The notes below the pieces were generated by a model that was not told where the DNA came from, made no database searches, and saw nothing but the letters and a program-made list of their open reading frames with translations. Shown one piece after another: positions 53,682-56,219 of a DNA stretch of 64,000 nt (within the stretch, counting starts at the first letter, position 1; every line of letters starts with the position of its first letter). Location: the NCBI RefSeq assembly GCF_005780165.1, contig NZ_VAUV01000004.1:62001-126000 (forward strand), in the 5' to 3' direction. Made by a program: the position numbers and the translations under genes. Origin of the DNA: Phragmitibacter flavus. Its GTDB lineage: Bacteria; Verrucomicrobiota; Verrucomicrobiia; Verrucomicrobiales; Verrucomicrobiaceae.

Positions 53682-56219
53682 ATGTCCGATCCTGACGTCA
53701 ATCCTATCGCCAAAAAACTCACCAATCAGCCCCGCCCCACCGGCGAACGGCACAATGTGAGACGCCGCCGCAGCCGCCGTTTTTTCCTTTCCAAATGGTT
53801 CGCCATTTTCGCCATGTTGGTGCTGCTCGGCGGAGTCGCGACCTTTGGCATCGTCATGGCCTACGTCAAACCCCTGCGCGAACAGGCCGCCACGTTTGAC
53901 CTCGAAGCGCTTCACAAAATCGAGAAAGCCAGCCTCATTCTCGACCGCCGTGGTGCCGAAGTCGGCCGCATCTACATGCTCAACCGCACCCCCATTCCCA
54001 TCAATCAGGTGCCCCAAAACACCATCGACGCCCTCGTTGCCCAGGAAGACGAACGATTCTTCCAGCACAGCGGCGTCGACTTCATCGGCATCGTCCGCGC
54101 CATCTGGCTCAACTACCGGGCCGGCTCCGAAACCCAGGGCGCCAGCACCATCACCCAGCAGCTCGCCCGCGAAGCCTTCAAACTCAAGGACCTCGAAACC
54201 GGCGAAAAAAATTCCCGCTACAACCGCAAGATCGTCGAATGGTTCCTTGCTGAACGCATCGAGAAAAATTACACCAAGTCCGAGATCCTCGAACTCTACC
54301 TCAACCGCATTTATTTTGGAGGCGGCTTCTACGGCATCCAGGCTGCCGCCCAGGGATTTTTCGGCAAAAACGCCACCCAGCTCACCGTCACCGAAAGCGC
54401 CACCATCGTCGGCATCATCAAGAGCCCCAACAACCTTCAACCGCTCCGCCATCCCGAACGCGCCACCGCCGCCCGCAACCACGTGCTCAACCGCATGGTC
54501 ACCGAAGGCACCCTTTCAAAAGGCGAACTCGAGACCCTCAGCGCCCAGCCCATTGTCACCGTCGAACGCATGACGAACCCCCAGGACAGCTACGTCTACG
54601 AAGCCGTCAGACAGGAAGCCGCCAAAATCATCGGCGGTGAAGCCGCCCTGCTCGGCGGATTCAACATCCACACCACCATCGACGCCAAACTGCAAAAAGT
54701 CGCCGAAGCCTCCGTCCGCAAACACCTTGCCGAAGTCGAAAAACGCGACGCCTACCCCCACCAAACCTACGAAAAATACCGCGCCCTCGTCCAGCTCTAC
54801 GACGAAAAACGCAAGGCCGGCAAAAACACCATTTCGCCTCCCCTCCCCAAACCCGAATACCTTCAGGCCTCCGTCCTCGCCATCGACAACGAAAATGGCG
54901 GCATCCTCGCCATGGTCGGCGGACGCGATTTCGCCGACAGCGAATACAACCGCGCCCTCCAGTCCAGCCGCCCCCCCGGCACCGCCTTCACCCCCTTCGT
55001 TTTCGCCACCGCCTTCCAAAGCTCCGATTACTACCCGCCTCTCCAAATCGAAGACCGACCCATCGACAACCGTCGCGTCATGATCGGCGGCCTCCAAGGC
55101 ATCCTTGGCGAATGGGGCACCGAAACCATGGAACGGACCGTCTTCAAAGGCACCGTCACCGCCCGCGATGCCCTCGCCCAAGGCCGCAACTCCGCCACCG
55201 CCGAACTCGGCGAACGCATCGGACGGGGCCCGGTGATTGAACTCGCCAAAAAAGTCGGCTTCCAGTCCACCATCAAGGACTACCCCAGCAGCTTCCTCGG
55301 AGCCAGCGAGGTCCGCCTCGACGAACTCTGCCTTGCCTACAGCACCTTTGCCAACAGCGGCAAACGCCCCCAGCAGGTCACCCTCATCAAACGCATCACC
55401 GACTACGAAGGCAAGATCATTTACGAGGTCAAGGAGGACACCCAGACCACAGTCGAAGCCATCGACGAAATCGCCGCCTTTCAGACCCACTCCTGCCTCA
55501 CCGACGCCCTCGCCACCGGCACGGGCAGCGTCGCCTACTCCGAATACGGCCTTGAAAAATTCCCCGCCGCCGGCAAAACCGGCACCCATTACGAATTTAA
55601 AGACCTCTGGTTCATGGGCTACACCAGCGCCATCACCTGCGGCGTCTGGTCCGGATTCGACCAGCAAAAAACCATCTACGAAGGCGCCTTCAGCAACCGC
55701 ATCACCCTGCCCATCTGGGTGGACATCATGAATGCCTCCAGGAAAGACTATAAACCCGAGGAAATCACCCCTCCCAAAAACGCCGAACTCATCGAAGTCT
55801 GCCGCACCAGCGGACAACGCGCCACCGACGGCTGCTACGTCAATGTCACCAAAAACGGCAACACCCAGTCCGTGCGCAACACCTCACTCGAAGTTCTGCG
55901 ACCCGACAGTCACTTCGACAGCTACTGCACCGAGCACCCCCACTCCGGCCTCGACCTCATGCCCCCCCGCATGCGCAGTCCGCTGGCACAAAACTCCGCC
56001 AGCTTCAGCGGCAGCGAATCCACCAACGCCTCCCCCGTCCGCATGCAAGGCCTCACCCTCGTTGGCAATGACCCTTACAACACGGTGCTCCCCGTCCTCA
56101 AAGCCGAGCCCGTCAATCCCGACGGCTCCCGCGTCATCAAAGCCGAGCCCGTCGAAGAGCCCGAAGCCACCCAGTCCCCCATCAAACTCGCCCCCCCACC
56201 GCGCCTTGAGTTGGAGTAG
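53682..56219 (+). CDS. Class A penicillin-binding protein (PBP1A type) with degenerate transpeptidase motifs
   Basis: This 845-residue bifunctional-type peptidoglycan synthase has a basic cytoplasmic N-terminus, a membrane anchor (about residues 38-62) and a GT51 glycosyltransferase domain with EDERFFQHSGVD (catalytic Glu122) and GASTITQQLAR (153-163). This half looks active. In the transpeptidase domain the family motif Ser-x-x-Lys is read as Thr434-Ala-Phe-Thr437 (in RPPGTAFTPF), and Ser-x-Asn as Gly501-Arg-Asn503; only Lys632-Thr-Gly is kept. The nucleotides confirm the codons acc-gcc-ttc-acc. So the cross-linking activity is predicted to be lost, unless another residue takes over. The C-terminal extension is Pro/Glu-rich. 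It faces the MidA-like gene divergently. Confidence 0.88.
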   Translation: MSDPDVNPIAKKLTNQPRPTGERHNVRRRRSRRFFLSKWFAIFAMLVLLGGVATFGIVMAYVKPLREQAATFDLEALHKIEKASLILDRRGAEVGRIYMLNRTPIPINQVPQNTIDALVAQEDERFFQHSGVDFIGIVRAIWLNYRAGSETQGASTITQQLAREAFKLKDLETGEKNSRYNRKIVEWFLAERIEKNYTKSEILELYLNRIYFGGGFYGIQAAAQGFFGKNATQLTVTESATIVGIIKSPNNLQPLRHPERATAARNHVLNRMVTEGTLSKGELETLSAQPIVTVERMTNPQDSYVYEAVRQEAAKIIGGEAALLGGFNIHTTIDAKLQKVAEASVRKHLAEVEKRDAYPHQTYEKYRALVQLYDEKRKAGKNTISPPLPKPEYLQASVLAIDNENGGILAMVGGRDFADSEYNRALQSSRPPGTAFTPFVFATAFQSSDYYPPLQIEDRPIDNRRVMIGGLQGILGEWGTETMERTVFKGTVTARDALAQGRNSATAELGERIGRGPVIELAKKVGFQSTIKDYPSSFLGASEVRLDELCLAYSTFANSGKRPQQVTLIKRITDYEGKIIYEVKEDTQTTVEAIDEIAAFQTHSCLTDALATGTGSVAYSEYGLEKFPAAGKTGTHYEFKDLWFMGYTSAITCGVWSGFDQQKTIYEGAFSNRITLPIWVDIMNASRKDYKPEEITPPKNAELIEVCRTSGQRATDGCYVNVTKNGNTQSVRNTSLEVLRPDSHFDSYCTEHPHSGLDLMPPRMRSPLAQNSASFSGSESTNASPVRMQGLTLVGNDPYNTVLPVLKAEPVNPDGSRVIKAEPVEEPEATQSPIKLAPPPRLELE

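Follow-up and report, generated by a model that had tools for sequence, protein, structure and literature searches.

The window, that is, the whole 64,000-nucleotide stretch of Phragmitibacter flavus DNA analysed here, carries a class A penicillin-binding protein (PBP) with a degenerate transpeptidase domain. This protein, P0001 (845-aa ORF, 53682..56219, forward strand), combines an intact glycosyltransferase (GT) half with a transpeptidase (TP) half that is very probably catalytically dead, judging by its motifs. In P0001 and its orthologs (group A), the dead domain is nevertheless maintained under purifying selection comparable to that on the GT half. We propose, with a probability of roughly 0.55, that P0001 is a glycan polymerase and that a dedicated class B PBP from a third family, putatively L002, would cross-link its strands in trans.

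Domains and active-site residues of P0001

All features of P0001 described here lie on the forward strand. An N-terminal helix (residues 36-70, 53787..53891), visible in the AlphaFold2 secondary structure, is a likely membrane anchor. It is followed by a GT51 domain (94-272, 53961..54497; Pfam Transgly PF00912, 203.5 bits) containing Glu122 and Glu186, and by the degenerate transpeptidase domain (397-650, 54870..55631; Pfam PF00905, 57 bits), which takes a PBP fold in model m35e70f88ce11. The AlphaFold2 model of P0001 is confident (mean pLDDT 85.5) and its top PDB match is 5hlb, E. coli PBP1b (E 1.6e-40). P0001 is thus modelled as a folded transpeptidase domain devoid of catalytic residues. 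A C-terminal segment (698-752, 55773..55937) carries C707, C718, C749 and H752, all conserved in the alignment.

An earlier note on this DNA had described a GT half with its catalytic Glu, Thr-x-x-Thr in place of SxxK, Gly-x-Asn in place of SxN and a retained KTG, and had called the transpeptidase apparently inactive. The codons bear out the description. Both GT glutamates are encoded by GAA. The SxxK site (54981..54992) reads T434-A-F-T437, with ACC for T434 (54981-54983) and again for T437 (54990-54992); the SxN site (55182..55190) reads G501-R-N503, with GGC for G501 (55182-55184) and AAC for N503; and the KTG motif (632-634, 55575..55583) is kept as AAA, ACC and GGC for K632, T633 and G634. 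Alignment to solved PBP1a chains sets RPPGTAFTPF on RQPGSSFKPF, GRN on SRN and AGKTGT on AGKTGT. A hidden alternative Ser-x-x-Lys was considered and ruled out by this alignment, since no other such motif falls at the active site.

Profile scores were less informative. The low PF00905 score of P0001 is no proof of loss, because the intact paralog L008 reaches only 71.4. P0001 scores 483.3 bits against TIGR02074 (PBP1A family), below the cut-off of 508.75; we dropped this miss as evidence of degeneracy, given that P0002, an intact paralog, is likewise below the cut-off (505.3). Against TIGR02070 (monofunctional glycosyltransferase) P0001 scores 118 bits, below the cut-off of 182.65. A class A PBP is expected to have a GT51 domain with catalytic Glu, a transpeptidase fold after it, and SxxK, SxN and KTG. 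P0001 has the first two, and TAFT, GRN and KTG as its motifs, so that KTG alone is kept. A monofunctional glycosyltransferase has GT51 without a transpeptidase domain, and P0001 has that domain. By descent and domain order P0001 is assigned to the class A PBPs, and by motif it is predicted not to be bifunctional.

After the SxxK site in sequence lies a conserved loop (462-481, 55065..55124; DNR.VMIGG..GILGEWG.E), recognised in the alignments and mostly of low confidence in both predicted structures, the second of which was built from a 7-row alignment and has a mean pLDDT of only 69.1. The loop is common to group A and to another degenerate group, D; other class A PBPs have a different stretch there.

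The divergent neighbour of P0001 is a SAM-methyltransferase gene (Pfam PF02636, 52456..53622, reverse strand). Homologs of this gene were found in 11 of the 15 group A loci compared, and a functional link to group A is putative at most.

Group A across the clade

The earlier note had suggested asking whether the change is clade-wide, and it proved to be so. The residue counts for group A, P0001 and its orthologs, cover 57 proteins from the order (own genome included) and 15 from other families of the class; within the relatives search an ortholog was present in 57/57 genomes. Position 434 is Thr in 56 of the order orthologs and Ser in one, L058, which is the sole fully canonical ortholog among the 57. 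Position 437 is Leu in 21, Thr in 19, Lys in 4 and another residue in 13; position 501 is Ser in 41 and Gly in 16, and position 503 is Asn in 41. Lys632 is present in 55/57, and Glu122 and Glu186 in 57/57. The 15 orthologs from elsewhere in the class all have Thr434, Lys632 and both glutamates (72 orthologs in total for the latter), and three of them have Lys437. Thr is also found in family f2 (L106-L121). The phylum search beyond the class returned different, canonical class A PBPs (L123-L135). A search with P0001 at E 0.001 gave no match in 59 of 113 class genomes, though GT51 is well conserved; some of these genomes may lack class A PBPs.

A sequencing slip or a local pseudogene was rejected as the source of the substitutions: Thr434, T437 and G501 recur in 56, 19 and 16 of the 57 orthologs, respectively, and the domain is under purifying selection. 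Chance was rejected as well, on a control scan of genome contigs for class A PBPs. Among the best 80 of 590 loci, 73 were canonical (S..K / S.N / K(T/S)G), six belonged to group A (all with Thr) and one had a broken frame; one of the 73 canonical loci, L181, is itself verrucomicrobial. Named members of group A include an Akkermansia sp. (L180) and an Akkermansiaceae protein (L185). The A. muciniphila label of L177 is not trusted, because this protein is 81% identical to an ortholog from our organism's own family.

In the main class A PBP tree (108 rows, full-length, quick search) group A forms one clade (98*) with group D as its sister (98*), and the intact group B falls on one side of a branch (86); A, B and D together receive 88. 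Groups E (98*) and F (100*) are separate degenerate clades inside the verrucomicrobial class A PBP clade (99*). The full-length tree places F outside A+B+D, a tree from the GT columns only does not resolve the deep forks among A, B, D and F, and a single A+D+F clade is compatible with an AU test (p 0.554). A single origin of dead class A PBPs is not established, because the GT-only tree leaves these forks open and the full-length tree sets F apart.

Glu122 is present in 108/108 tree rows. Group A rows have Thr434 in 58/59, K632 in 58/59 and Lys437 in 7/59, the seven being the canonical L058 and six further rows with TxxK, so that not every group A member need be dead. At least six changes at Lys437 fall within group A in the 108-row tree, which indicates repeated loss, or regain, of this residue in proteins with Thr434. 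With Thr this widespread, and TxxK in six of the rows that have it, one may ask whether the transpeptidase is still active, Thr434 serving as nucleophile together with an unusual base. P0001, however, has Thr for Lys and GxN for SxN, and Lys is absent in 53/57 order orthologs; we consider an active enzyme very improbable.

The selection estimates are rough, as dS frequently approaches or exceeds 1; with this in mind, omega in group A is 0.019-0.178 for the TP domain and 0-0.174 for the GT domain (19/20 pairs with finite estimates), TP omega being no higher than GT omega in 11/19 pairs and higher in 8/19. The TP domains of group B (0.065-0.138, four finite of five pairs) and group D (0.084-0.168, four pairs) give comparably rough values. 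Several residues are nearly invariant within group A and particular to it (T434, N463, G473, L475, G476, E477, G479, E481 and A669), and those from 463 to 481 sit in the loop that is shared with D and absent from B and F. A domain that is simply decaying might be expected from the variability of positions 437 and 501 among orthologs and from group E, in which little of the TP domain is left. The low TP omega, the long open frames of the orthologs and the group-specific near-invariant residues make such decay hardly credible.

The same residues bear on a further possibility, a ligand sensor in which the pocket formed by Thr434 and KTG would bind a stem peptide, a glycan or a beta-lactam without chemistry and switch the GT half. 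Thr434 and K632 stay where Lys437 does not, and the group-specific loop after the site is nearly invariant; the near-invariance of the two pocket residues is only suggestive. Positions 501 and 503, on the other hand, vary, K632 is lost in the whole of group F, and ligand binding is purely hypothetical. We regard a sensor as quite unlikely.

Other transpeptidases and wall enzymes of the genome

The genome of our organism (G000, 99.89% complete) has ten PF00905 and four PF00912 matches. Its class A PBPs are L009 (the window protein), L008, L007 and L010. The search for another complete class A PBP, also proposed in the earlier note, returned two: L008 (STIK/SRN/KTG) and L007 (SALK/SLN/KTG), the latter PbpC-like by our reading. 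L010 (G000:C1:363516-365345) is more degenerate (TAFL, GKT, WGG), and the gene immediately upstream of it encodes a canonical class B PBP. Four class B PBPs have canonical motifs, namely L001, L002 (located in G000:C24), L003 and L004, and two SEDS matches were found. There are, moreover, 14 YkuD-domain (L,D-transpeptidase-type) matches at 14 places. Given the four canonical class B PBPs and the 14 YkuD matches, the lineage has not given up cross-linking. The reading in the earlier note is supported in part and needs extending on this point.

Two further proteins of this genome deserve mention. L005 (L005:1-2526, G000:C2) is a fusion of an M56 (BlaR1-type) peptidase, a PBP_dimer domain and a transpeptidase whose SxxK site reads GAYL, and is possibly a pseudo-transpeptidase sensor. 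L006 (G000:C13:150986-151564; 287 aa) is assigned by Pfam to the transpeptidase family only, and by our reading of its motifs it resembles a class D beta-lactamase.

Group B, the intact sister of the degenerate proteins, has a match in 56/57 genomes, some in pieces; in the remaining one, G046 (82% complete), it was not seen. Its motifs, read in 39 of the 56 genomes with a match, are canonical in 60/60 rows; these rows stand for 53 separate places and come in part from further families within the class. Four other rows of that set belong to group E. The proteins of this group (L089, L159-L162) have GT51 with little TP domain left (585-631 aa where measured; two were scanned). Group E occurs in the family of the Akkermansia-like genomes discussed below.

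Such a complement leaves room for a plain glycan polymerase with no dedicated partner, in which nearby transpeptidases (group B, any class B PBP or L,D-transpeptidases) cross-link and the dead domain serves folding or GT regulation. The GT motifs of P0001 are intact, the genome offers two intact class A PBPs besides the class B and YkuD enzymes just listed, and none of the 15 group A loci compared has a class B gene beside it. The pairing in group D, the fusion in group F and the class B family that they share favour instead a specific partner, at least in those other groups, and we judge the partnerless polymerase unlikely, albeit worth keeping in mind.

A proposed class B partner

Group D is TP-dead like group A, and a canonical class B PBP lies directly upstream of it, on the same strand, in 6/6 loci with flanks fetched (six examined, from at least nine D-like loci). 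Group F (L331-L337 and L171) goes further: 8/8 loci, from seven genomes, are single ORFs of 1287-1413 aa that join GT51, a degenerate TP, PBP_dimer and a canonical class B TP. In the class A half of these fusions Lys437 is replaced by Gln (8/8) and K632 by Met (8/8), and Ser434 is kept in 4/8. Given the operon-like order in D and the fusion in F, both groups are likely to have a dedicated class B partner.

The class B tree gathers the C-terminal halves of F, the partners of D and the L002-type proteins in a single family that is distinct from FtsI and the L003-type (97/94*). With more rows, this third family receives 94, unstarred, and the L002-type together with the D partners 100*; the L002-type alone receives only 32. 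Motifs of the L002-type are canonical in 18/19, the exception being G137 with SCD for SxN. A third-family match was found in 42/42 genomes tested, all of them genomes with group A or F; in 19 it was placed by the tree as a separate form, and in the rest it was assigned from its score or counted as F. Four of the 42 are F genomes, and these show only FtsI, an L003-type and the fused copy. The L003-type adjoins a SEDS gene in G122, G127, G071 and G065, and for this reason we take it as the PBP2 of RodA.

The D pairing, the F fusion and the common class B family together suggest that cross-linking was handed to a class B PBP, and by family and co-presence the L002-type would be the best partner candidate for group A. 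We hypothesize that the GT51 half of P0001, on the strength of its motifs, polymerises lipid II; that the transpeptidase half, whose nucleophile and base have apparently been replaced (Thr for Ser and Thr for Lys), would be inactive and retained as a folded module without catalysis, perhaps docking or positioning the partner; and that the strands would then need another transpeptidase, a role that L002 may fill in addition to FtsI and the SEDS-linked PBP2 (L003-type). Both the physical partnership and the choice of the L002-type as group A's own partner are inferred.

Several observations count against this proposal. Group A stands apart from the proposed partner gene: no class B gene adjoins it in the 15 loci compared, and among 38 non-F genomes the two lie within 5 kb only in G048 (within 15 kb in G111). 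Mirror-tree correlations do not single the partner out either, with partial r of 0.449 for A and L002-type, 0.516 for A and B and 0.412 for A and L003-type (raw r 0.938, 0.904 and 0.896, respectively), and we set the method aside as not discriminating. The canonical L058 and the six TxxK rows, the trees that do not establish one origin for the dead proteins, the SCD motif of G137, the overlap in anchor gaps described below and the single SEDS gene of three genomes outside g12 weigh on the same side. Published work cuts both ways. PMC4632607 describes the pneumococcal class B PBP2b and PBP2x as active with a class A PBP2A whose TP was mutated, and report that E. coli PBP2 with TP-inactive PBP1A alone was not active, the latter a point against our proposal.

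The N-termini of the third family may also differ. From the end of the hydrophobic segment to RGxI there are 25-28 aa in 5/5 FtsI and 25-31 aa in 8/9 L003-type proteins; in third-family and D-partner proteins the same gap is 26-281 aa in 24/25 with the motif found, and 5 of these 24 (26-31 aa) fall in the FtsI/L003 range. The linkers of F peak at 0.96-1.43 (same hydropathy scale, 8/8), with no strong hydrophobic segment. Many third-family N-termini could be signal peptides and thereby unlike the fixed anchor that FtsI and the L003-type have, a weak impression gained by eye, as the hydropathy ranges overlap.

Akkermansia-like genomes

One genus, g12, is probably Akkermansia, as we infer from L180, which is 67% identical to its closest g12 ortholog. 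The L003-type is found in 0/17 g12 genomes versus 25/25 others tested (in G122 the match is weak and split in two). A single SEDS gene is present in 7/7 g12 genomes tested versus two in G143, the sole other genome of that family; a single SEDS gene also occurs in three genomes outside g12 (G029, G039 and G044). All 17 g12 genomes have group A and a third-family match, and group A has Thr in all 15 of them with motifs read. A. muciniphila is stated in PMC5814848 to be without RodA. A broader and more tentative idea, which we hold to be somewhat less probable than even, is that a third wall synthase, independent of SEDS, operates in Verrucomicrobiae, with a TP-dead GT51 polymerase and a dedicated class B PBP as its parts, and that it has taken over the elongation role in Akkermansia-like bacteria seemingly devoid of RodA and PBP2.

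Comparison with known systems

We found no description of such a protein in the open-licence PMC literature, a weak negative given that scope. A class A PBP survey assigns Akkermansia a classical set (PMC8406291). Surveys count class A PBPs by homology, and the clade studied here, Akkermansia relatives included, carries class A PBPs that are degenerate by motif. Judging from these motifs, group A proteins are expected to be incapable of cross-linking and not to react with beta-lactams by acylation.

P0001 resembles E. coli PBP1a and PBP1b in its N-terminal helix, its GT51 domain with catalytic Glu and its transpeptidase fold, and differs from them in the loss of SxxK and SxN. With monofunctional glycosyltransferases of the MtgA/SgtB type it shares the prediction of polymerisation only; unlike them, it keeps a whole conserved transpeptidase domain. 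C. difficile PBP1 and PBP3 offer a class A PBP in complex with a class B PBP, although there PBP1 has a TP activity that is essential (PMC12539705), a further point against our proposal. If the partner model holds, the closest parallel would be the SEDS-class B PBP pairs, RodA-PBP2 and FtsW-FtsI, in which polymerase and cross-linker likewise sit on two polypeptides; here, in contrast, the polymerase would be GT51, and the supposed class B partners may, on weak indications, be without the usual anchor. It would then represent a natural case of polymerase and cross-linker separated by a non-SEDS route, a GT51 counterpart of the SEDS-class B PBP pairs, and would bear on how the wall is built in bacteria without RodA.
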